Shown in pieces: positions 49,585 to 60,778 of a DNA stretch of 64,000 bases. How positions within the stretch are numbered: position 1 is the stretch's first letter; each line of letters begins with the position of its first letter. Under the pieces are notes generated by a model. The model saw nothing but the letters and a program-made list of their open reading frames with translations. It searched no databases and was not told the origin of the DNA. A program made the position numbers and the translations under genes. This DNA is from Bacillota bacterium (GTDB lineage Bacteria; Bacillota; Clostridia; Peptostreptococcales; Anaerovoracaceae), in the NCBI GenBank assembly GCA_017522185.1, contig JAFWZZ010000024.1, positions 62,001-126,000 on the forward strand, written 5' to 3'.

Positions 49585-51024
49585 TTATTCTGTTTCTTCA
49601 TCAGAAGATCTGCTGCGCAGTGCCATCTGGGCGGCAGCGTGACGGCTGTGAACATCTAATTTCTGATAAATCTTCTTGGTGTAATCTTTTACGGTATGTT
49701 CAGAGAGGAACAGAATCTTTGCGATATCGCCATTACTGTAACCGTAGCTGATTAAATCCAACACTTCTTTTTCGCGGGCAGTCAGTGTTTCGATCAGCTT
49801 GCTTTCCGGCGTTACCGCCTTTGTCTGTTTTGTTGCCGGTGCACTTGCTGGTACACTTGCATCTGCATCTGCAGGCACGATCTTTCTCGTCAGGGAGAAG
49901 ATGAGGAATGGTGCCAGGTGCATGTACAGCAGCTGAAGAGTAACCATAATCATCAGATAAACCAGAAGCAGCATCTGGGTGTTGTCGCGGAAGGCTTCGA
50001 CCATTGCGCTTTGAATCACTACCGTTGCCACCGCGATAAACATGCAGGCCGGCACGATATGCTTTGATGGATAATGCTTCACCAGAATCAGCTCGTACAG
50101 CGGAAGGAACTGACATGGTGCGAAGCCGAAACCGATGCAGACGCATGCCAGGTAGGTCACGGATGGAATATAGGCTGATGCGAAGAGTATCAGGAATCCC
50201 ACTACAGAGACGGACATCAGTACTGGAACCAGACGCAACGGATGCAGAATCTTCTTCTTATACAGTATGTACATTGTCAGGCTGGCAACGGCATCGCTGA
50301 AGTATGCGATTGCTACTCCGTTTTTAACATCGGCTACGGCAGCCGAACCACAGAGGGTCATCAGGCAGCTTACTACGGCTAGGGCACAAAGTCCGGTGAA
50401 GAGGTGCTTCGGACAAAGGATTCCGTCACCCTTCTTTACAAAACGCGGACAGGCAGCCTTTCCTGCAGGCAGGGTGAAGAAGAAGTACAGCAGCATCAGC
50501 AGCATCATGACAACGACCACGCGGAACGCGGAGAAGGTAATCGGCACAGTGTCGTTTTGCACCAGCGCAATGATCAGAAAGGAGACACCGTAAGCGATGG
50601 TCAGATGGGTAACGGCACTTTTCTCCGTTATCATGTTGACGATGACGAAAGATTCAAACCCAATCATAATGCAGCAGCAAAAGATGTGGGCATAAATCAA
50701 AAGCAGCAGTGTCTCAGGCGGCAGGGGCAGAAAAAGTCCGCCGATGGTAGCCAGCGCGCCAATGGTAAAAAATCTTTGTGCCTGAACGACCCCCTGTGGG
50801 AACGCAATCATATAGATAATCGTCAGGATATAGCAGGCTGCAATCAAGGTCGTGGCATTATCCATGTCCACCGGAATCGGTGTCCGGTTGTCGATGACCA
50901 GAGATGGCCCCATGAAATAGATGAAACCCATCTGCCATGCATTGAACATGGCGAAACAGATGAGTCGAAACAGCGGGATGTCGATACGCCGGTTTTGGTT
51001 TTCGAGTAAGATAGAATGATTCAT
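49585..51024 (-). CDS. Multi-span membrane regulator with LuxR-type helix-turn-helix
   Basis: A 479-residue protein. Residues 1-385 contain about twelve hydrophobic helices in a transporter-like arrangement, for example FPQGVVQAQRFFTIGALATIGGLFL and TYLACVCIGFGFAPCQFLPLYEL. A linker rich in Ala, Pro and Ser follows, then a C-terminal LuxR domain (LTAREKEVLDLISYGYSNGDIAKILFLSEHTVKDYTKKIYQKLDVHSR). The membrane part probably senses or transports a ligand and the DNA-binding domain responds. AAAAGGAGC lies before the ATG. It faces the zinc-ribbon cluster, a possible target. Confidence 0.87.
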   Translation of the reverse strand: MNHSILLENQNRRIDIPLFRLICFAMFNAWQMGFIYFMGPSLVIDNRTPIPVDMDNATTLIAACYILTIIYMIAFPQGVVQAQRFFTIGALATIGGLFLPLPPETLLLLIYAHIFCCCIMIGFESFVIVNMITEKSAVTHLTIAYGVSFLIIALVQNDTVPITFSAFRVVVVMMLLMLLYFFFTLPAGKAACPRFVKKGDGILCPKHLFTGLCALAVVSCLMTLCGSAAVADVKNGVAIAYFSDAVASLTMYILYKKKILHPLRLVPVLMSVSVVGFLILFASAYIPSVTYLACVCIGFGFAPCQFLPLYELILVKHYPSKHIVPACMFIAVATVVIQSAMVEAFRDNTQMLLLVYLMIMVTLQLLYMHLAPFLIFSLTRKIVPADADASVPASAPATKQTKAVTPESKLIETLTAREKEVLDLISYGYSNGDIAKILFLSEHTVKDYTKKIYQKLDVHSRHAAAQMALRSRSSDEETE

Positions 51025-51165
51025 ATATAAAGCTCCTTTTCAAGCGTTTTTTCTCTTATTATACCAAAACACCACCAACGGGGGATACCCATTTTCAGAA
51101 AATTCCAATAGAATACAGCCAAGTAAACAAGCAAATCACCAGGACGCGAAACGGAGGTGAGAAGT

Positions 51166-51477: not shown

Positions 51478-51609
51478 CAGAAAAAAGAATGGATGTGTTG
51501 GTAGGAAACCTACCCGAACAGGCAAAAAACGACCAATTCAAATAGGGGATAAGAATCCGGAGATACTTTATAATGGAAAAAATCATTATGTATATAAAGA
51601 GGTACAATC

Positions 51610-51894
51610 GTGAAACAGCCAGAAGGAAACGGGACAAAATTTTTTGAGTATATCAATAAGGCAAAGGATGAGTTTGCAAAGATTCTGGAAATCTATCCGG
51701 AGCTGGCACTTCTGTCAGACCGAGAAATCGAGGTTTTTGAACAGCTTTTATCTGATAAGACCCTGGCGCAGATTGCAGAGACCTTGTTCATATCCCACTC
51801 GACGGTACATTTTCACTGCAAAAACATCTATAGGAAGCTGGGAATTACCAGCAGGAGACAATTTATTATCACTTATAAGGATTTATGTCAATAA
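51610..51894 (+). CDS. Small LuxR-type helix-turn-helix regulator
   Basis: A 94-residue protein consisting of a short helical N terminus (KFFEYINKAKDEFAKILEIYPELALL) and one LuxR/GerE DNA-binding domain (LSDREIEVFEQLLSDKTLAQIAETLFISHSTVHFHCKNIYRKLGITSRRQFI). There is no receiver domain. It starts at GTG 51610 with AGAGGT upstream. It heads the zinc-ribbon/lipoprotein unit, 22 bases before the next gene, so it probably regulates it; the signal is unknown. Confidence 0.83.
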   Translation: MKQPEGNGTKFFEYINKAKDEFAKILEIYPELALLSDREIEVFEQLLSDKTLAQIAETLFISHSTVHFHCKNIYRKLGITSRRQFIITYKDLCQ

Positions 51895-51916
51895 GAGAGG
51901 TTAGAAGGAGGATATC

Positions 51917-52819
51917 ATGGGACTGTTTGATAAGGCAATGAAACAGGGATTAGGGGAAGCGTTAGGCAAGGCAGCAAAGCAACTGGACCAGGCGGTGAAC
52001 CAGGTGAGCAATCAGATGAACGGTGGTCAGCCACAGCCGCAAAATCAGCAGATGCAGCAACAGCAATATGCACAGCCACAGCAGCAGTACAGCCAGCAGC
52101 CGCAGCAGAATATGGGACAGCCGGCAGCGGGTGCGGGACTTAGTGCAGGCCTGGGCGGATTCTTCGCGAACCTGGAGAAGTCGGCAAAGAGCTTTGCGAC
52201 GGAACTGGGAAAAGACATGAAGATCTGTCCAAATTGTGGTAAACCATCCGGTAAGGACCAGCAGTTCTGTCCGGAATGCGGCGCGAAACTGCCAGAAGAA
52301 ACGGTAGCGGAAGGTGCCATTTGTCCGAATTGTGGGAAGCAGAATGATATTGGAACAAAATTCTGTCAGGACTGCGGAACAAAATTACCATCTGCAGTGG
52401 CAGAAGAGCAGGCAGCGGAAGCGGCAGATGCCAGTGTCATGGCACAGTGGGATGAACAGCTGGGAGCCTTCCCGAAGTGGAACTGCGGCGGCTCCAAGTA
52501 CAACATTGAAATGTATGATAACTACTATTCTTTTACCGCATTCTTCCCACAGGGCATGGGTGCAGAGGCGGCAGTCAATCAGTACCGCCAGATTCTGCAG
52601 CAGGAGGGTTTTCAGCCGGCGGGACAGTATCCGTCTATGGACCACCTGTATAAGATGTACAACGGCAGATGCTTACACGTGGATTTAGAACACTGCTTCG
52701 AAGGTGACTACGAATGGCCGACCATCGGCTTTGATTTAAGCGAACCGACAGGCGGATTCGACTACGTGAAACCGGAACCGAAGAAACCAACAGGGCTAAA
52801 GGACCTGTTTAATCTGTAG
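51917..52819 (+). CDS. Double zinc-ribbon protein with Gln-rich linker
   Basis: A 300-residue protein in four parts: a short amphipathic N terminus (MGLFDKAMKQGLGEALGKAAKQLDQAVNQV), a Gln/Pro-rich disordered stretch (about 35-68), two zinc ribbons (ICPNCGKPSG...FCPECG near 103 and ICPNCGKQND...FCQDCG near 134), and a C-terminal alpha/beta region (about 175-285, ending EWPTIGFDLSEPTGGFDY). No membrane segment is evident. AGGAGG precedes the ATG. The ribbons recur in the next genes of the cluster; the function is unknown. Confidence 0.8.
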   Translation: MGLFDKAMKQGLGEALGKAAKQLDQAVNQVSNQMNGGQPQPQNQQMQQQQYAQPQQQYSQQPQQNMGQPAAGAGLSAGLGGFFANLEKSAKSFATELGKDMKICPNCGKPSGKDQQFCPECGAKLPEETVAEGAICPNCGKQNDIGTKFCQDCGTKLPSAVAEEQAAEAADASVMAQWDEQLGAFPKWNCGGSKYNIEMYDNYYSFTAFFPQGMGAEAAVNQYRQILQQEGFQPAGQYPSMDHLYKMYNGRCLHVDLEHCFEGDYEWPTIGFDLSEPTGGFDYVKPEPKKPTGLKDLFNL

Positions 52820-52872
52820 ATAAAGAAAATCACACTACGAAATATAAAGCGATGGTAAAGGAGGGGAACGAT

Positions 52873-53565
52873 ATGAAGAAGCTGTTATTATTAGGGTTAA
52901 CGCTGGCGATGGCATTTACCATGGTAGCCTGTGGCGGCGGAGATGATAAGCCTTCCGCAGAAGACGCAGCGAAAAAGGCAGTAGAGCAGGCAGAAGAATT
53001 TGAATCCTTCAGCGTAGAGGCAGTAGAACATTATCTCAAGAGTGCAGTGAACATGGAACTGACTTCTGTGGCACCGGATTGGGAATATACCATAGGCGAG
53101 AAGAGTGCATACGCAGACGATCCGTCCAGCGGTTACGGACACACAGTTGTTTTGTTCAGCAAGAAGGACGGAGAGGTAACGAGTGACGAATATCAGGCAT
53201 GGCTGCAGAAAGTCTTTGATGCAACGGCGAAAGCCTCTCAGGACGGATATAACATCGTAGGATGGGAATTTGTAGCGGAAGGAGAAGATCCATTTAAGGA
53301 AACAACGTTAGACAAGGCGATGGACGGTTTTCTGCAGGGATGGTGTTTCCGCGTCAATGATAAGAGCATGACGGTATACGTTTCCCAGGCTTACGATAAC
53401 GATAAGGAAAGTGAAATCGGCGAGATGTTCTACTACTATGGCGTGAAAGTAGATATCGGTGTAGGCCTGCAGAAGAGTTTTGATGATACCATGGAAGATA
53501 TGGAAGAAGCCTTAGAAGAGAATGAAGACGAGATCAAAGATGCAATTGAAGATTATGCAGAATAG
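52873..53565 (+). CDS. Lipoprotein, unknown function (first of two)
   Basis: A 230-residue predicted lipoprotein: signal MKKLLLLGLTLAMAFTMVAC with the lipobox cysteine at residue 20, then a Gly/Asp-rich spacer. The mature part is acidic, with a mixed alpha/beta domain (APDWEYTIGEKSAYADDPSS, YNIVGWEFVAEGEDPF) and an acidic helical C terminus (DTMEDMEEALEENEDEIKDAIEDYAE). The start at 52873 has AAAGGAGGGG upstream. It is translated from the same unit as the zinc-ribbon genes. No family recognised. Confidence 0.8.
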   Translation: MKKLLLLGLTLAMAFTMVACGGGDDKPSAEDAAKKAVEQAEEFESFSVEAVEHYLKSAVNMELTSVAPDWEYTIGEKSAYADDPSSGYGHTVVLFSKKDGEVTSDEYQAWLQKVFDATAKASQDGYNIVGWEFVAEGEDPFKETTLDKAMDGFLQGWCFRVNDKSMTVYVSQAYDNDKESEIGEMFYYYGVKVDIGVGLQKSFDDTMEDMEEALEENEDEIKDAIEDYAE

Positions 53566-53592
53566 GCGTATCAAAAGTAGGAGGGGAAACAA

Positions 53593-53988
53593 ATGGCTTT
53601 TTTAGATAAGATCAATCAAGTGGCAAAGAATATTGGAGATAAGACTAACGATGCTATTGAAAATACGAAACTAAGTCAGAAAATCAATTCGGAAAAGGCT
53701 GCGGCAGGAGAAGACTTCAAGAGAATCGGGGAGTATTACTACAACGTATACTTGTCCGGAGGTGAGGTAGCTCCGGAGGTCCTGGAATTTTGTCAGAACG
53801 CGAAACTTCATCTAGATTCTGCAGCAGCGGCACAGATGGAAATTGAACGGAACAAGGCAGAAGGCCCACAGACTATGCAGGCGGCTCCGGCACAGGGGGC
53901 GCAGGGAGGCGGGTTTTGCCAAAACTGTGGCACACCATTGGCACCAGGAACTAAGTTCTGCCAGGGTTGCGGGATGAAGATAGAGTAA
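53593..53988 (+). CDS. Zinc-ribbon protein with helical N terminus
   Basis: A 131-residue protein with a long N-terminal amphipathic helical region (FLDKINQVAKNIGDKTNDAIENTKLSQKI), a middle helical part, a Gly/Ala/Gln-rich linker and one C-terminal zinc ribbon (FCQNCGTPLAPGTKFCQGCGMKIE). The N-terminal part resembles proteins described as zinc ribbon domain-containing with coiled-coil tails. AGGAGGGG precedes the ATG; spacing to its neighbours is 27 and 14 bases, consistent with one operon. Function unknown. Confidence 0.78.
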   Translation: MAFLDKINQVAKNIGDKTNDAIENTKLSQKINSEKAAAGEDFKRIGEYYYNVYLSGGEVAPEVLEFCQNAKLHLDSAAAAQMEIERNKAEGPQTMQAAPAQGAQGGGFCQNCGTPLAPGTKFCQGCGMKIE

Positions 53989-54002
53989 AGGAGGACGCAT
54001 CG

Positions 54003-54671
54003 ATGAAAAAATGGCTGATATTACTATTATCCGTGACGATGATCTTCATGTTTACTGGATGTGGCGGCGGTGAAGAACCTGCGCCAACAGCAACAGAAGG
54101 TGAACAGGTGCAGCAGGAAGAACCTGCAGCCGAACCGGAAGAATTAAGCGGATTCGCGGGAACAAAGACCGGTGCATTCTATTCCCAGTTTGCAGACGGT
54201 AAGATGTACATGGAATATGAAACCGAAATAGAAGGACAGCAGATGACCCTCATTTCTGCAATCAATGGAGATAAAACCTATTCCGAAAGCAGAATGGGTG
54301 ATGTTACAGCAGGTGTCAGCATCATAGACGGAGATGTGATGTACACCATCGACCACAACAGCAAAATGGTTGTGAAGATGCCGTTGCAGGCAGACGCACA
54401 GACTATCGCAACGGACATCATGGAAGAAAGCGACGTTAACATGGATGAGATGAAGTCCGGCAAACGCACCATTGATGGCAGGGAATATGACACAGAAGAG
54501 TGGCATATGGAAGACGGCGCATCCATCATGTGTTTCGATGGAGATCAGCTGGCATACATAATCGGTGAAGCAGATGGAACAGAAGCCATCATGAAAATCG
54601 TTAAGGTTTCCAAAGATGTAGACGAAAGTCTGTTTGAGATTCCTGACGACTATCAGATGATGGAAATGTAG
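54003..54671 (+). CDS. Lipoprotein, unknown function (second of two)
   Basis: A 222-residue predicted lipoprotein: signal MKKWLILLLSVTMIFMFTGC with lipobox cysteine at residue 20, then an acidic Pro/Glu/Thr-rich spacer (about 24-50). The mature domain is beta-rich and reads like an LppX/LolA-like fold (FYSQFADGKMYMEYETEIEGQQMTLISAINGDKTYSES, EEWHMEDGASIMCFDGDQLAYII, LFEIPDDYQMMEM). That fold is known in lipid-carrying lipoproteins; here it is only a suggestion. The start at 54003 has AAAGGAGG upstream. Confidence 0.78.
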   Translation: MKKWLILLLSVTMIFMFTGCGGGEEPAPTATEGEQVQQEEPAAEPEELSGFAGTKTGAFYSQFADGKMYMEYETEIEGQQMTLISAINGDKTYSESRMGDVTAGVSIIDGDVMYTIDHNSKMVVKMPLQADAQTIATDIMEESDVNMDEMKSGKRTIDGREYDTEEWHMEDGASIMCFDGDQLAYIIGEADGTEAIMKIVKVSKDVDESLFEIPDDYQMMEM

Positions 54672-54689
54672 AAGAAACGGAGGTGGACC

Positions 54690-55202
54690 ATGGCTAGATT
54701 TTGCAAAGAATGCGGGGCCGAAATCCCTGAAGGTGTAAGCTTTTGCAACGCATGCGGCGCGCCCGTGGACCAGCCCACGCAGCAGACGGTATCAGTCGTA
54801 CAGCCTGCACAGCAGGCAGCATCACAGCCGGTGCAACAGCCAAAGGCGCAGCCGGCCCCTTTGATGGACGACACTGTAGGCACAGGGTATTTCTTCGGCA
54901 TGATGCTGGTGTACGCACTTCCAATCGTCGGCTGGATTGCATGTATCCTGACCGCACTGAAAGGAAAGCATCAGACGAAGAAAAACTTCGCGAAAGCGAT
55001 GATGATCTGGTTAATCATTGGCCTGGTACTCTCCCTGATTACAGGGGTAATCATCACCTGGCTGGGCACGCTCTTAGTTGACTATATCAACGAGCTTGCC
55101 GCAGCAGAATTGGGAGAAAATGGGGAGATTGGAGAGTTTCAGGATTTATTAAATCAGTTACAGCAATATGAAAACGGAGAGGCAGCTCTCCCGGCAGAAT
55201 AG
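54690..55202 (+). CDS. Zinc-ribbon membrane protein
   Basis: A 170-residue protein with an N-terminal zinc ribbon (FCKECGAEIPEGVSFCNACGAPV, about residues 4-26), a Gln/Pro/Ala-rich linker, and two transmembrane helices (YFFGMMLVYALPIVGWIACILTAL and MMIWLIIGLVLSLITGVIITWLGTLLV). An acidic C-terminal tail follows. The ribbon is probably cytoplasmic. ACGGAGG precedes the ATG. The plan (ribbon, linker, helices) is widespread in Clostridia but uncharacterised. Confidence 0.8.
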   Translation: MARFCKECGAEIPEGVSFCNACGAPVDQPTQQTVSVVQPAQQAASQPVQQPKAQPAPLMDDTVGTGYFFGMMLVYALPIVGWIACILTALKGKHQTKKNFAKAMMIWLIIGLVLSLITGVIITWLGTLLVDYINELAAAELGENGEIGEFQDLLNQLQQYENGEAALPAE

Positions 55203-55212
55203 GAGGTACAAA

Positions 55213-56199
55213 ATGGCTTTTTGTGTAAACTGTGGATCTCAGCTTCCTGATGGAAGCAGATTTTGTGGAAATTGTGGCGCACAGCAGGGTGGCGGCGCAC
55301 CGGCACCTATGCAGGGCGGCGCACCGGCCGGTCAGCAGTTGGGTGCAAACCAGATGCAAAAGAACGGTGTCATCTTCACCAAGGCTGATGTGATCGACTT
55401 CGAAATTTTCGGCGACGACATGCAGCTGGTTGAAATCGAACTGGACCCGGGCGAAAGCGTAATCGCAGAAGCAGGGGCAATGAACTATATGGAATCCTGC
55501 ATCAAGATGGAAACCGTATTTGGTGATGGCAGCGGCGCAGATCAGGGCAAGGGCCTGGGCGGCAAGCTGCTCAGCGCAGGAAAGAGAGCACTGACCGGTG
55601 AAGGACTGTTCATGACCGTATTCCAGAATGCAGACCCTGCAAGAAAGGCAAAGGTTGCCTTCGCATCACCATACCCAGGTAAGATTATTCCTGTAGACCT
55701 GGATACCTTTGATCAGCAGCTGATCTGCCAGAAGTCCGCATTCCTTTGTGCGGCAAAGGGCGTAAACGTAGGCATCCACCTGCAGAAGAAACTGGGCGCA
55801 GGCCTGTTCGGCGGCGAAGGCTTCATTATGCAGAAGCTGACAGGTGACGGTGTTATCTTCCTCAATGCAGGCGGCACTATCATCAAAAAGACTCTGGAAG
55901 CAGGCGAAACCCTGAAGCTGGATACAGGCTGTCTGGTAGCCATGAGTGCAACAGTTGATTACGATGTAGCGTTGCAGAACGACATCAAGAACGGTTTCCT
56001 GGGCGGCGAAGGACTGTTCCTGGCAACCTTAACAGGTCCGGGCGAAGTATGGCTGCAGTCCTTACCATTCAGCAGAATGGCTGACGAAATCATCAAAGCA
56101 TCCAGAGATAACAAAGGTGAAAACAAAGGCTTCGCCAATCCGGTAAACGAAGTAACCGGCGGTCTCAATGATGCACTGGGCGGACTGTTTAAGTTCTAA
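55213..56199 (+). CDS. Zinc-ribbon AIM24 (TIGR00266-type) protein, copy 1
   Basis: A 328-residue protein with an N-terminal zinc ribbon (FCVNCGSQLPDGSRFCGNCGAQQ) and a large AIM24/TIGR00266 domain from about residue 50 to 320. Glycine-rich turns typical of this beta-fold are seen in GEGLFMTVFQNADPARKAKVAFASPYPGKIIPVDL, LGAGLFGGEGFIMQKLTGDGVIFLNAGG and NGFLGGEGLFLATLTGPGEVWLQSLPFSRM. AIM24 is a mitochondrial membrane-organisation factor in yeast; the bacterial role is unknown. The start at 55213 has AGGAGG upstream. It closes the operon before the hairpin at 56222. It is a close paralogue of 59822-60778. Confidence 0.88.
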   Translation: MAFCVNCGSQLPDGSRFCGNCGAQQGGGAPAPMQGGAPAGQQLGANQMQKNGVIFTKADVIDFEIFGDDMQLVEIELDPGESVIAEAGAMNYMESCIKMETVFGDGSGADQGKGLGGKLLSAGKRALTGEGLFMTVFQNADPARKAKVAFASPYPGKIIPVDLDTFDQQLICQKSAFLCAAKGVNVGIHLQKKLGAGLFGGEGFIMQKLTGDGVIFLNAGGTIIKKTLEAGETLKLDTGCLVAMSATVDYDVALQNDIKNGFLGGEGLFLATLTGPGEVWLQSLPFSRMADEIIKASRDNKGENKGFANPVNEVTGGLNDALGGLFKF

Positions 56200-56221: not shown

Positions 56222-56250
56222 AGAGGGCTGGGAAAGAAACAGCCCTCTGT
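56222..56250 (+). terminator. Hairpin terminator after the first AIM24 gene
   Basis: AGAGGGCTG and CAGCCCTCT enclose a 9-base loop; GTTTG follows. The next ATG is 37 bases later, so partial readthrough is likely. Confidence 0.7.
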
Positions 56251-56286: not shown

Positions 56287-59200
56287 ATGAAACCCATATG
56301 GAAGAAACTATCGGCAGGACTGCTGGCCTTTGCTTTGGTATTTACAACCATACCGCCAATAGGTGCCAGTGCCGACACGACAGCCCTGGGAACTGATACC
56401 GGCGAAAAGGAAGAATACGTTATTGACGTTAGCGAAGCAGATCAAGTTAGTTTGCCGGCACAGGGATTAGATGTCGTCTATGTCCTGACCGGAACGAATA
56501 CAGCGGCTACGGTTTACATCAATGCCGACTGTGAACTGATCCTGCGTAATGTTACCCTCAAGAAGATATATACTGATTCCGACAAAAATTTAACGGTGAA
56601 CATTACCCTTGAGGGTGAAAACGTCATTGATCAGAATGTATCACAGTCTGAAGGTGCTATAGAAGTTCGCCGCTCACAAGTTACCATCAACGGCGGCGAG
56701 GATGACAGTCTGCACGCAAAATCCCGTAAATTCCCTGCATACAGCATTAGAGATGAAGTCAAGGCGGGAGGCGGGCTTACCATCAACGGTGGAAATATTA
56801 CCTTTGAAATGACAGATTCCGGTGTTCCAATACAAACCGCCTATACCCAGAACGGCGGAACGGTGAAGGTCATCGGATCTACCAGTTCCTGCTTTCTTTA
56901 CAATGTTTATCTCAACGGAGGAAGCCTGGAGGTTAACCATCAAGCTAACAATAGCGTTATTTTTAATAACCCTGTAAAGATCAAAAACGGGGCCTCTATG
57001 AAGGTAACGGGTCCTGAAACGCCTGGACAGAATTTTTCGTTCAATGGGCCATTAGGTCTTGCTGACGGTGCGGCTGCCGATGATTGCCTCCTTGTAAGAT
57101 TTGACGACAGTTCAGACTTTGTTTATCTTGACGAAGGAAACGAAATCCTGAGAGGTAAAACATACGCGGAAATCAAGGCGGTTACTCATGTCCATGAGTA
57201 TGAGAATGGAATATGTTCCTGCAACTATAGCTGTGTACATAACACAGACGACGGCACATGCAGCTTGTGTGAAGCATATATTTATAAAATCAAGCATCAG
57301 CCTACAGTAGAGGAGCCTTATGTAGCACTCAATGACGGAACGGGGGCTTCTTATCAGTGGTATGAAGTGAAGAACATCAGTGAAATCACCGATGAGAGTA
57401 AAATCTACCCTTGGTCATACTTCGGTGAACCTTTTGAGGAGGACAGCACCTATGACGCGGCTGCCGGATGGACACCGATTGACGATTCTTACGAAGGCGA
57501 CAGCTACAAGTATTTGTATTATATCGCATCATCTTTTAAAGCAGTCGATCAGGTGACACTTCGTTTTTCCTCTCCTGTAGAGTATGCAGTCATATTCAAT
57601 CAAAATGATGAGCTTTTATGCGAAGTTGACGGAACAACGGCAACTGCCACCATTCCTTCTGACGGAGTTTTTGGAATCTGTGCAACGACAAAAGACACGG
57701 AACCAACAGTGAAGGTATATGTAGGCGATGCAGAAGTAAACGCCCTTACGGGACAGACGAGCGCAACACTGCGTCAATACGCTTACGGAAACTATTATTT
57801 CTGCAAGGCAACAGCAAAAGATGGAACCGTGCTGACCTCTGATTATGCAGATTTTACTTACAAAATTACCCATCAGCCTACGGACGAAGCACAGTATGTT
57901 TCTCTCAATAACAGCAAAAATGCCACATACCAGTGGTACATTGCAAAAGGGGACATCGTGCAGGTGACAGAGGAAAACTCTCACGGGTGGAGTGTTTTTG
58001 ATGCACCGGAATATATCGGCGGAACCTATGACAGCGAAACCGGATGGACGCCGGATGAATATGGCGACTATTTTGTCGTATGGCTGGATGAGGGAGATGT
58101 CGTGAACTTCGAATTTTCACAGACACCGTCGGAGTGGGGATACCTATTTAGCACGACAGAAGGCGCTATCGAAGATGAAGCCAATATAGAGTCTGACGCA
58201 AGTTTGACCGCCGAAGCCAGTGGATATTATGGCATCTGGGCTGTGGACGGTGGTAACCTGAAGGCAACCATGGATGGAACAGAATTTATCGCTGTCAGCG
58301 GACAGACTGACGCGACGCTCAATGCCAGTGAGCTGGGTCAATACCGCTGCGAAGTTACCTTTGGCAACGGAACAAAGGTAACTTCAGACATAGTTGAAGT
58401 ACAGCATCTGCATGCCGGCGGAATGGCTACTTGTAAGGACAAGGCAATCTGCATAACCTGTGGCATTGGATACGGATCTCTTTCGACAGAGCATAAGTAC
58501 GACAATGCCTGCGATACAGAATGCAATGTATGCCGCACAACAAGAACCGTTACACATAATTACAATGAAGCGACTTGTACGGATCCAAAAACTTGCAAGA
58601 TATGTGGCAACGAAGAAGGTGAAGCGTTAGGTCATACCCCTGGTCCAGAAGCAACCAGCACAACGCCTCAAATCTGCACTGTATGTTTGAGCGTACTGGC
58701 ACCGGCAACAGGTACAACACCTACCCCAGACCCTGAAACAGGTGACGGTGGCAGCACAGCCGGCGGCACAACGCCAGACCCAGGCGTAACACCGACACCT
58801 ACCCCAGATCCAGAACCGGGCGATGGTGGAAGCACAGGCGGCGGCACAACGCCGGACCCAGGCGTAACACCGACACCTAATCCGGATCCAGGCACAGGAA
58901 CAATCCCAGAACCGGGTAGCGGTACAACGCCAACACCAGACCCAGGTGTGACCCCAACACCTACCCCAGATCCAGACACAGGAACAATCCCAGAACCGGG
59001 TAGCGGTACAACGCCAACACCAGACCCAGGCGTAACACCGACACCTACCCCAGATCCTGAGCTGGAACACCAGTGCACATACAAAACTGCCACAACCAAG
59101 GCAACTGCAAGCAAAAATGGTAAAATTGTCACAAAGTGTACCGTTTGTGGCACGGTAAAATCGACCACAACAATCTACAAGGCTTCCGGGGTTAAACTGA

Positions 59201-59694
59201 AGGTGGCATCTTACGCCTACAACGGCAAGGTGAAGAACCCGACAGTCATCGTAAAAGACAGCAAGGGCAAGACCATTGCAAAATCCAATTATAAGATTAC
59301 CAAGCCAACAGGCAGAAAGGCCATCGGCAAGTACACGTATATCATTAAGTTCAAGGGAACCAAGTATACAGGTACCAAGAAACTAACCCTGACCATCAAA
59401 CCGGTGAAGCCAACCATTCAGACACCAAAGGCAGCAAAGAAAGCCATCACAGTAAAATGGAAGAAGGGCAAGAAAGCCCAAGTAACCGGCTATCAGGTGA
59501 TGGCAGCAACTAACAGTAAGTTCACCAAGAACAAGAAGACTGCTACAGTTAAGGGATATACCAAAGTTTCCAGGAAGATGACCGGCCTGAAGGCAAAGAC
59601 CAAGTATTATGTAAAGGTAAGAACCTACAAGACCGTCAAGGGTGTAAAGATTTACTCCAACTGGTCCAAGGTGAAGAGTGTAAAAGTAAAATAG
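56287..59694 (+). CDS. Large secreted repeat protein with Fn3-like C terminus
   Basis: A 1135-residue secreted protein. A signal peptide (KKLSAGLLAFALVFTTIPPIGASA) is followed by a beta-helix-like region (about 40-270). Two similar modules, each starting with YKI(K/T)HQPT and containing YQWY, cover about 335-525 and 525-705. Cys-pair segments follow (CKTICK-like: TCKDKAICITCG, NVCRTTRTVTHNYNEATCTDPKTCKICG), then a Thr/Pro-rich linker with repeats (about 810-920), a bacterial immunoglobulin-like domain and a C-terminal Fn3 domain (ITVKWKKGKKAQVTGYQV...KTKYYVKVRTYKTVKG). No LPxTG motif or anchor is visible, so attachment to the cell is unclear. GAGGAGG precedes the ATG. Confidence 0.87.
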   Translation: MKPIWKKLSAGLLAFALVFTTIPPIGASADTTALGTDTGEKEEYVIDVSEADQVSLPAQGLDVVYVLTGTNTAATVYINADCELILRNVTLKKIYTDSDKNLTVNITLEGENVIDQNVSQSEGAIEVRRSQVTINGGEDDSLHAKSRKFPAYSIRDEVKAGGGLTINGGNITFEMTDSGVPIQTAYTQNGGTVKVIGSTSSCFLYNVYLNGGSLEVNHQANNSVIFNNPVKIKNGASMKVTGPETPGQNFSFNGPLGLADGAAADDCLLVRFDDSSDFVYLDEGNEILRGKTYAEIKAVTHVHEYENGICSCNYSCVHNTDDGTCSLCEAYIYKIKHQPTVEEPYVALNDGTGASYQWYEVKNISEITDESKIYPWSYFGEPFEEDSTYDAAAGWTPIDDSYEGDSYKYLYYIASSFKAVDQVTLRFSSPVEYAVIFNQNDELLCEVDGTTATATIPSDGVFGICATTKDTEPTVKVYVGDAEVNALTGQTSATLRQYAYGNYYFCKATAKDGTVLTSDYADFTYKITHQPTDEAQYVSLNNSKNATYQWYIAKGDIVQVTEENSHGWSVFDAPEYIGGTYDSETGWTPDEYGDYFVVWLDEGDVVNFEFSQTPSEWGYLFSTTEGAIEDEANIESDASLTAEASGYYGIWAVDGGNLKATMDGTEFIAVSGQTDATLNASELGQYRCEVTFGNGTKVTSDIVEVQHLHAGGMATCKDKAICITCGIGYGSLSTEHKYDNACDTECNVCRTTRTVTHNYNEATCTDPKTCKICGNEEGEALGHTPGPEATSTTPQICTVCLSVLAPATGTTPTPDPETGDGGSTAGGTTPDPGVTPTPTPDPEPGDGGSTGGGTTPDPGVTPTPNPDPGTGTIPEPGSGTTPTPDPGVTPTPTPDPDTGTIPEPGSGTTPTPDPGVTPTPTPDPELEHQCTYKTATTKATASKNGKIVTKCTVCGTVKSTTTIYKASGVKLKVASYAYNGKVKNPTVIVKDSKGKTIAKSNYKITKPTGRKAIGKYTYIIKFKGTKYTGTKKLTLTIKPVKPTIQTPKAAKKAITVKWKKGKKAQVTGYQVMAATNSKFTKNKKTATVKGYTKVSRKMTGLKAKTKYYVKVRTYKTVKGVKIYSNWSKVKSVKVK
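58720..59060 (+). repeat. Coding tandem repeats of the Thr/Pro linker
   Basis: Degenerate repeats encode TPDPGVTPTPTPDP-type units. A near-identical 84-base unit starts at 58897 and again at 58981. Long frames on the minus strand here are a by-product of the repeat. Confidence 0.85.
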
Positions 59695-59723
59695 CCTTCC
59701 TAGTTATGTATACATAATGCATC

Positions 59724-59757
59724 ACAAAACCGCTTTACAATTGTAAAGCGGTTTTGT
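59724..59757. terminator. Perfect 34-bp palindrome after the secreted protein gene
   Basis: Two 17-base arms are exact reverse complements, with a GC-rich core (ACCGC/GCGGT) and an A run to the left and a T run to the right. It fits a bidirectional terminator, and the promoter described at 59734 is embedded in it. Confidence 0.85.
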
Positions 59758-59762
59758 ATAAT
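59734..59762 (+). promoter_or_regulatory. Sigma-A promoter embedded in the palindrome
   Basis: TTTACA (59734-59739), a 17-base spacer and a perfect TATAAT (59757-59762). It would transcribe the second AIM24 gene, giving a leader of about 50 bases. Confidence 0.6.
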
Positions 59763-59821
59763 GGGAAAAAATTCAAGTTTGGAAAACTACCCGAAAAGGG
59801 GTTATTGCAAGGAGGTAGACT

Positions 59822-60778
59822 ATGGCATTTTGTAACAATTGTGGAGCACAGATTCCTGACGGCAGCAAGTTTTGTGGAAGCTGCGGCGCACAGCAGGGCG
59901 GCGGTCTCTTTGGCGGTGCGACAGGAAACAGAGTGCAGAAGAACGGCGTAACCTTTACCAAGGCTGACGTGATAGATTTTGAGATTATCGGTGATGACCT
60001 GCAGCTGGTAGAAATCGAGCTGGATCCGGGTGAAAGCGTGATTGCAGAAGCCGGGGCCATGAACTACATGGATGCCTGTATCCAGATGGAAACCGTATTT
60101 GGTGACGGCAGCGGACACGATGAAGGAAAAGGATTTGGTGCCAAGCTGTTCAGTGCCGGCAAGCGTGCCCTGACAGGAGAAGGTCTGTTTATGACTGTGT
60201 TTAAGAACGCAGATCCTGCGAAGAAAGCAAAGGTTGCATTTGCTTCTCCATATCCCGGAAAGATTATTCCTGTAGACTTAGATACATTCGACCAGACCTT
60301 GATTTGCCAGAAGTCAGCGTTCTTGTGCGCGGCAAAGGGCGTGAACATCGATCTGTATCTGCAGAAGAAACTGGGTGCCGGACTGTTCGGCGGTGAAGGT
60401 TTCATCATGCAGAGACTGACCGGTGACGGTGTAGTATTCCTCAATGCCGGCGGCACCATCGTCAAAAAGACCCTGGCAGCGGGCGAAACCATCAAGATGG
60501 ATACCGGCTGTCTGGTAGCCATGAGCGCAACCGTAAACTACGATGTGCAGATCCAGAATGACATTAAGAACGGCTTCCTGGGCGGCGAAGGTATTTTCAT
60601 TGCAACCCTGACCGGACCGGGTGAAGTATGGATGCAGTCCTTACCATTCAGCCGTATGGCAGATGCTATTATCAAAGCATCCAAGTACAGCACCGGTGAC
60701 AGCGGCAGCTTCAACAACCCGATTGAAGAAGTGACCGGCGGATTGGAATCTGCATTAGGTGGATTATTCAAGTTCTAA
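59822..60778 (+). CDS. Zinc-ribbon AIM24 (TIGR00266-type) protein, copy 2
   Basis: A 318-residue paralogue of the AIM24 protein at 55213. It has the same N-terminal ribbon (FCNNCGAQIPDGSKFCGSCGAQQGG) and an almost collinear AIM24 domain: VIDFEIIGDDLQLVEIELDPGESVIAEAGAMNYM and GEGLFMTVFKNADPAKKAKVAFASPYPG. The main difference is a shorter linker after the ribbon and a few substitutions, so the two may be partially redundant or form a mixed assembly. GCAAGGAGG precedes the ATG. It has its own promoter and terminator, so regulation is separate from copy 1. Confidence 0.88.
   Translation: MAFCNNCGAQIPDGSKFCGSCGAQQGGGLFGGATGNRVQKNGVTFTKADVIDFEIIGDDLQLVEIELDPGESVIAEAGAMNYMDACIQMETVFGDGSGHDEGKGFGAKLFSAGKRALTGEGLFMTVFKNADPAKKAKVAFASPYPGKIIPVDLDTFDQTLICQKSAFLCAAKGVNIDLYLQKKLGAGLFGGEGFIMQRLTGDGVVFLNAGGTIVKKTLAAGETIKMDTGCLVAMSATVNYDVQIQNDIKNGFLGGEGIFIATLTGPGEVWMQSLPFSRMADAIIKASKYSTGDSGSFNNPIEEVTGGLESALGGLFKF

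Follow-up and report, generated by a model that had tools for sequence, protein, structure and literature searches.

In this study, we analyzed a 64,000-nucleotide stretch (hereafter the window) of contig JAFWZZ010000024.1 from a Clostridia genome of the family Anaerovoracaceae, which carries at 51610-56199 a unit of seven genes, G1-G6 and ZR-AIM24 (G7), encoding a small LuxR-type regulator, zinc-ribbon proteins, lipoproteins and a ribbon protein with an AIM24 domain. An earlier note on this DNA had proposed these genes as an undescribed system. All seven open reading frames (ORFs) are present with the claimed domains and in the claimed order, the small LuxR regulator being the first, and no description of such a unit was found in the open-access literature searched, consistent with the view that no named system has this order. 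The genes are tightly spaced, as the note had stated, with gaps from G1 to G7 of 22, 53, 27, 14, 18 and 10 bp. Ribosome-binding sites are strong for G2-G7 and weaker for G1. The genes are not set apart by their G+C content (0.40-0.53 vs 0.47 for the window), and third codon positions were the most divergent in all nine homologous gene pairs compared.

The unit is wider than seven genes (Table 1). Upstream lie CXX0, encoding a cysteine-rich protein, and MFS-LuxR, which is transcribed divergently from the cassette, and downstream there is a second ZR-AIM24 gene; the seven ORFs had been listed correctly, but these three genes were missing from the list, and three starts are better placed at 52873, 54003 and 55213. 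The closing terminator proposed for the unit is plausible, but not strong, because the stem-loop found at 56222-56248 was missing from the output of the terminator scan, which had a loop limit of 8.

Table 1. Genes and other features of the cassette region in the window.
Feature	Position	Strand	Remarks
MFS-LuxR, putative membrane-embedded one-component regulator, 479 amino acids (aa)	49585..51024	-	GerE 4e-18, C-terminal LuxR helix-turn-helix (HTH)
Divergent control region	51025..51165	.	degenerate ATCCC-N8-GGGAT, 2 mismatches, 51069-51086
CXX0, cysteine-rich protein, first cassette gene, 103 aa	51166..51477	+	four CxxC knuckles
Second control region	51478..51609	.	GGTAGGAAACCTACC and a partial ACTACCC...GGGT-like element
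G1, stand-alone LuxR HTH, 94 aa, GTG start	51610..51894	+	GerE 4.7e-18
G2, two CxxCG zinc ribbons, helical N-terminal region, orphan C-terminal domain, LFNL tail	51917..52819	+	
G3, lipoprotein, VACG lipobox, orphan domain	52873..53565	+	
G4, amphipathic N-terminal helix, helical body, C-terminal zinc ribbon	53593..53988	+	Zn_Ribbon_1 8.6e-7
G5, lipoprotein, DUF4412-like	54003..54671	+	DUF4412 22.3 bits vs cut-off 21.6
G6, N-terminal zinc ribbon and two transmembrane (TM) helices	54690..55202	+	
ZR-AIM24 (G7), N-terminal zinc ribbon, AIM24 domain, amphipathic LFKF tail	55213..56199	+	
Stem-loop, possible terminator	56222..56248	+	9-bp stem, 9-nt loop
Large secreted protein between the two AIM24 genes, 1135 aa, membership uncertain	56287..59694	+	
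AACTACCCG-N5-GGGT element	59785..59802	+	
Second ZR-AIM24 gene	59822..60778	+	protein 83% identical to the first

Comparison of genomes showed that a rare LuxR subfamily, predicted to be embedded in the membrane, faces a ribbon/lipoprotein cassette in several genera. Loci are denoted here by L numbers and genomes by three-digit G numbers, G000 being the genome of the window: L166 is from the goat-caecum metagenome-assembled genome (MAG) RGIG1748, L167 is from the rumen-type MAG SIG262 and is the same locus as in G057, and L175, L176, L198 and L200 are from G308, G366, G394 and G663, respectively. A profile of MFS-LuxR with four rows, including those of G000, G366 and G065, matched 2 of 118 relatives at E<=1e-40 and, at E<=1e-20, 10 of 345 genomes of the family with 11 loci; the subfamily is rare. 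A cassette lies opposite the regulator at eight of these loci (5/8 without the profile rows), namely in G000, G366 and G065, which supplied rows, and in G285, G260, G311, G312 and G147. The eight loci represent six genera, because G285 and G260 belong to one genus and G311 and G312 to another. Homologs in L166, L176 and L150, all adjoining such cassettes, have 46-53% identity, and a simple sliding-window count gave 10 hydropathy segments in the window, 11 in L166 and 12 in both L176 and L150. Homologs of G1 (52-61% identity) occupy the equivalent place in L166, L176 and L200. At G230:C164 the contig ends at the MFS-LuxR locus, and its neighborhood is not readable. In G394, MFS-LuxR is followed on the same strand by genes for Band_7_1 (SPFH), TFIIB-type ribbon, TPM and sigma-70 region 4 proteins, and the SPFH protein has ribbon-type cysteines (DZR below cut-off); at this locus (L198, 1069-6659) a ydjIGH-like set and a LuxR-type membrane regulator occur together. 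A different arrangement was observed in two genera, where the same pair of a solute-binding-like lipoprotein and a Cache-like LuxR protein lies opposite the cassette (L167, 5611-8667; L175, 7226-10290). No MFS-LuxR adjoins these two cassettes, and the regulator seems to have been swapped.

The distribution of the unit is patchy. A profile of G2 matched 7 of 349 family genomes, strongly in G000, G057, G308 and G366 and more weakly in G230 and G324; the seventh, G131, was doubtful (E 9.3e-4) and was dropped, its locus having no cassette. The 12 other genomes of the window's genus gave no match, and at class level two of 391 genomes did, the window's own and G663 of another family. Among genomes of named species, two loci, L166 and L167, were confirmed by two short peptide patterns of low reach. 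In part-by-part searches of 119 relatives, where short matches read as signal peptides or ribbon were not counted as homologs, the C-terminal domain of G2 occurred in two genomes, the window's own counted, and a full-length relative of G3 in one genome beyond the window's own (G051), the other G3 matches being rejected as signal peptides. AIM24 was found in 70 of these relatives; most of the matches listed lie in open frames of <295 aa, which are taken to be AIM24 without ribbon. Such a patchy occurrence, together with the locus-specific lipoproteins, would fit a defence or bacteriocin-immunity island with diversifying lipoproteins. This is improbable, however: PADLOC matches were weak and confined to HTH, ribbon and TM stretches, and no nuclease, NTPase or toxin-like effector was recognized in the window unit. 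A phage origin was also considered and rejected, as the PHROG matches were weak and to ribbon stretches, with G6 matching a phage membrane-protein family (3.1e-6).

The earlier note had proposed a search for the whole order, from LuxR to AIM24, as a conserved neighborhood. The exact seven-gene order was seen in the window only and the content is modular, but a core of MFS-LuxR opposite LuxR-HTH, G2 and a lipoprotein recurs in three other genomes (RGIG1748, G366 and G663), two of which also have ribbon-AIM24. In L166, MFS-LuxR lies opposite G1 (61% identity), G2 (62%), two lipoproteins, G5 (50%), G6 (46%) and ribbon-AIM24 (85%), and neither CXX0 nor G4 was seen at this locus. L176 has MFS-LuxR opposite G1 (52%), an inserted 5'-nucleotidase-like gene, G2 (60%), several lipoproteins with a ribbon-TM protein, G5 (59%), G4 (33%), ribbon-AIM24 (77%) and G6 (34%), and in L200 MFS-LuxR (41% to the L150 protein) lies opposite G1 (59%), G2 (57%) and G3 (55%). 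L175, which lacks MFS-LuxR, has G2 (65%), ribbon-AIM24 (82%), G5 (58%), a lipoprotein, G6 (32%) and G3 (51%). In L167, two cysteine-rich ribbon proteins precede G2, G6 and a ribbon-DUF4870-like protein (DUF4870 below cut-off); L177 has G2 and a G5-like gene, and L178 has G2 with divergent lipoproteins. At these seven G2 loci beyond the window, G1 with MFS-LuxR occurs three times, ribbon-AIM24 three times, G5 and G6 four times each, G3 twice and G4 once, all of which are lower bounds because some contigs are short or masked. A second cassette type (G065, G285, G260, G311 and G312) consists of CXX0, a ribbon protein, a seven-CxxC protein, a multi-ribbon protein, in places others, and G5. MFS-LuxR and, at most loci, G5 are common to both types, and the window links them, because among the loci of the first type CXX0 occurs there alone.

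Flanking genes differ from locus to locus, and therefore the gene set holds together as a module. The neighborhood exceeds chance, since other genera have these genes together as well, between different flanks, and the core is not confined to one strain, one carrier belonging to another family. That unrelated genes became neighbors by chance would accord with the variable gene content of the loci and with the contrast between the common AIM24 and the mostly absent G2 domain in the 119 relatives. Nevertheless, this is very improbable, as the same core and regulator stand among different flanks in several genera and share a control element and protein tails (see below), and the conservation found has largely refuted it already. 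Several genes near cassettes or similar to them were also observed. Genes like 5'-nucleotidases or metallophosphatases lie beside cassettes in L176 (7334-8791, by Pfam), L194 (5803-7977) and L146 (3826-4707), the latter two recognized by eye. L149 (6136-13379) contains a cluster of a ribbon and four lipoproteins with G4- and G6-like proteins, opposite a pair resembling a histidine kinase and a response regulator. The ribbon clusters of L154, L157 and L160, which have kinase- and FHA-like genes, were set aside by eye as probably another kind of locus.

Comparison of the divergent intergenic regions further showed that most of the shared putative control regions carry one palindrome, ATCCC-N8-GGGAT. 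It is exact in 7 of 10 regions (L166, L176, L200, L150, L192, L193 and L194), with one mismatch in L195, two in the window (0.03 of shuffles as good) and four in L199, a count that is post hoc, as these regions also supplied the motif and two pairs of them (L192/L193 and L194/L195) are nearly identical. None of 57 other intergenic regions of the same loci has an exact copy. Across nine whole genomes the palindrome has 18 exact sites, compared with one for the pattern read backwards, and six of the 18 are in these divergent regions; in G366, G065 and G260 the palindrome is the single site genome-wide, and the exact sites of G147 (three) and G312 (two) are all elsewhere. Within the window, matches with up to two mismatches were not above chance (27 vs 25 expected). 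A second element, ACTACCC followed after 3-5 bases by GGGT, lies 41-95 bp upstream of G1 in L166, L176 and L200. For the form CTACCC-N4-GGGTAG, L176 has an exact copy, L200 one with a single mismatch, and L166 a one-mismatch match further upstream. The copy before G1 of the window is weak (three mismatches, 0.145 of shuffles as good), and matches in the window with up to three mismatches were not above chance (10 vs 9.5 and 9 vs 13 expected). The element at 59785-59802 is the only exact match in the 64 kb to a pattern that was written with that site in view; it lies between a promoter-like site (59734-59762, 11 of 12) and the second AIM24 gene, which suggests that this gene may belong to the same regulon as the unit. 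In the region 59695-60778, the second ZR-AIM24 gene, with its own promoter-like site and control-like element, stands behind a 17-bp perfect inverted repeat, and the genome of the window has a third AIM24 gene, encoding 226 aa with no ribbon (L147, 8070-8750; G000:C5:23123-23743).

Most proteins of the cassette have relatives at other loci. Those of CXX0 (38-42% identity) are the first cassette gene in L150 and L192-L195. Homologs of G3 are present in L175 and L200 and also in L146 (40-43%), those of G4 in L176, G059 and G091, and those of G6 in L166, L167, L175, L176 and G042. Within the G5 family, three of seven members match DUF4412, and three of seven have a weak Ependymin match below cut-off. 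Ependymin and LolA-type proteins have a common lipid-binding fold. ZR-AIM24 matches both AIM24 (PF01987; 245.3 bits vs cut-off 25.7, E 6.4e-73) and TIGR00266 (104.8 bits vs cut-off 96.6); its relatives in L166, L175 and L176 have 77-85% identity, and its nearest solved structures by sequence are 1yox and 1pg6. The 1135-aa secreted protein downstream has CxxC pairs, proline/threonine-rich repeats and a C-terminal fn3-like match just below cut-off. Large secreted proteins adjoin the cassette in the window and in G147 (an SLH protein), and several lipoproteins occur per locus, for instance in L176, which would fit a cassette that helps to sort, fold or display lipoproteins and large surface proteins. 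We consider such a surface assembly module unlikely, given that the large proteins are not constant across loci and that no sortase, secretion ATPase, chaperone or peptidase was recognized in the ten window proteins scanned.

An LFKF-like C-terminal tail is shared by two of the ribbon families. With a pattern chosen from the same proteins on which it was counted, the tail was found in 11 of 304 ORFs from 15 sources, every one of them a G2 or ribbon-AIM24 protein; these are six of the eight G2 and all five ribbon-AIM24 proteins in these sources. The AIM24 tails are strongly amphipathic (hydrophobic moment 0.56-0.57, reached by 0.001 of shuffles), as are the N-terminus of G4 (0.54; 0.002 of shuffles) and residues 20-37 of G2 (0.44; 0/2000 shuffles). 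The C-terminal domain of G2 had no Pfam match, the DUF6591 cut-off included, and the best match to solved structures had an E of 0.32. DUF6591-like domains are found on lipoproteins of these loci, one of which, in L178, matches DUF6591 at 6.2e-10. Among 600 proteins, the best non-G2 matches of the G2 profile were two DUF6591-like lipoproteins (E 0.0087 and 0.029). Conversely, a profile of the lipoprotein domain, with rows picked by eye, had four G2 proteins as its best matches outside lipoproteins and its own rows (E 0.011-0.031), the window's own G2 matching poorly (E 8.7). Five leave-one-out runs placed the omitted row at rank 7-10 and the highest G2 protein at rank 8-10 (E 0.00056-0.066), and hhalign gave a probability of 79% for the two domains. 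It is suggestive only, but the predicted cytoplasmic domain of G2 may be weakly related to the domains of neighboring lipoproteins. For G3, hhalign gave probabilities of 1.0 and 0.2 against the lipoprotein domain and G2, and a relationship to either was rejected; matches of G5 to designed 'Pizza' repeat proteins, with a low E over 33 residues and no single stretch passing, were taken as repeat artefacts.

Based on these comparisons, we infer that the locus is a dedicated and modular envelope-homeostasis (membrane-stress) system, which would be similar to PspA-YdjGHI in its working without being PspA-YdjGHI; we judge the chances of this to be about even. MFS-LuxR would sense a membrane or envelope signal via its 10-12 TM domain and switch the cassette through the palindrome, and G1 may act on the second element, which is found before the second AIM24 gene as well. 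Both the ribbon proteins and the AIM24 protein would dock on the inner membrane face via amphipathic helices and tails, and G6, as a TM ribbon, would also attach them to the membrane, forming a coat or scaffold, while the lipoproteins, some possibly lipid-binding, would act on the outer face. The whole assembly might stabilize or repair the membrane, as PspA-YdjGHI does in Bacillus subtilis with different proteins. The earlier note had envisaged an assembly spanning the envelope and sensing or shaping the membrane, to which several hints may point: the regulator is predicted to sit in the membrane, tails are amphipathic, lipid-anchored proteins match ependymin weakly, and one MFS-LuxR relative lies beside ydjIGH-like genes. 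A bolder and doubtful extension is a two-sided envelope scaffold of Clostridia, in which one domain would be used on cytoplasmic ribbons and on outer lipid anchors, TM ribbons would tie both sides, AIM24 would form a coat with membrane-docking tails, and an own LuxR protein would serve as sensor. By analogy, and just as tentatively, this could in effect be the bacterial counterpart of an Aim24-assisted membrane organizer; in mitochondria, Aim24 is described as supporting the assembly of Mic10 into MICOS (PMC8633786).

Several observations weigh against an envelope-homeostasis system of this kind. G230:C146 has MFS-LuxR without a cassette, and the cassettes of G057 and G308 face the Cache-like LuxR protein instead. 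The window's palindrome copy is degenerate, both exact palindromes of G000 are away from the divergent region, G147 has a cassette with no motif in its divergent region, and near palindromes occur in the 57 control regions as well (one mismatch in 1/57, two in 4/57), besides the fact that the motif was counted where it was read. With regard to the tails, G2 of L177 lacks the LFKF-like tail and that of L200 is cut short, ending in LDLFK; ribbon-AIM24 proteins of L152 and L153, which are other kinds of loci, also lack it, and residues 1-18 of G2 show no unusual amphipathicity (moment 0.30; 0.22 of shuffles). In addition, the window unit has no PspA, SPFH or TPM protein. Finally, the characterized 12-TM LuxR regulators DadR, HcdR and CadR of Eggerthella lenta are described as activating metabolic enzymes in response to small molecules, their targets being enzymes that metabolize dopamine, hydrocaffeic acid and catechin (PMC9734109).

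Because these characterized proteins drive metabolic enzymes (PMC9734109), the main rival is a ligand-induced small-molecule module, in which MFS-LuxR would answer a specific gut compound and the lipoproteins and ribbon proteins would bind, sequester or pass it on. The window regulator shares with DadR, HcdR and CadR the N-terminal multi-TM part (10-12 TM in this subfamily) and the C-terminal LuxR HTH, a likeness of architecture only; the lipoproteins are diverse and differ between loci, and the pair facing the G057 and G308 cassettes includes a solute-binding lipoprotein. On the other hand, the cassettes have no enzyme or transporter in common; their recurrent parts are ribbon proteins, AIM24 and lipoproteins, and the window regulator adjoins no catabolic enzyme but a ribbon/lipoprotein cassette. 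We regard the ligand module as possible, with the balance tilted clearly to its disfavor. If the envelope-homeostasis reading holds, 10-12-TM LuxR regulators would extend beyond drug and diet metabolism, and bacterial AIM24, for which a 2018 paper describes no ascribed role in prokaryotes (PMC5822837), would be linked to a defined membrane module. In the Clostridia genomes searched, genes for ribbon and membrane proteins, AIM24 and small lipoproteins turn up repeatedly without an explanation, and a cassette-marking regulator with its putative control element gives them a testable context.

Parts of the locus resemble known families and systems. ZR-AIM24 has a complete AIM24 domain as in the AIM24/TIGR00266 proteins of known structure, and differs from them by its N-terminal zinc ribbon, its amphipathic LFKF tail and its cassette context (PMC7046647, considered as a paper on DUF124, concerns DUF1240 and is unrelated). 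AIM24 is likewise described from stress-type gene clusters, namely group I of the ter clusters (PMC5822837), but no Ter protein of the TerD, TerC or TelA type was recognized in the unit and the nine neighboring genes scanned. The L178 lipoprotein and G5 resemble DUF6591 and DUF4412 lipoproteins, respectively, which here lie beside ribbon proteins, and G2 may hold a cytoplasmic DUF6591-like domain. The PspA-YdjGHI system resembles the locus in its proposed working. In B. subtilis, the ydj set is described as bringing PspA to the membrane, with pspA under a sigma-W promoter (PMC8581546), and a phage-shock study describes the ydjI/G/H domain set (band-7 with ribbon, ribbon with TM, and TPM) and, in the vicinity of PspA, lipoproteins and ribbon proteins; neither AIM24 nor LuxR came up when its main text was searched for these terms (PMC11237479). 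No Pfam match to PspA was found in the ten window proteins, MFS-LuxR and the nine flanking genes scanned. The likeness, by architecture only, lies in the zinc-ribbon proteins, including the TM ribbon G6, and in the G394 locus, where a relative of MFS-LuxR precedes a ydjIGH-like domain set. The window unit differs in its lipoproteins, its AIM24 protein and a LuxR-type membrane regulator, as opposed to the sigma-W promoter described for pspA.

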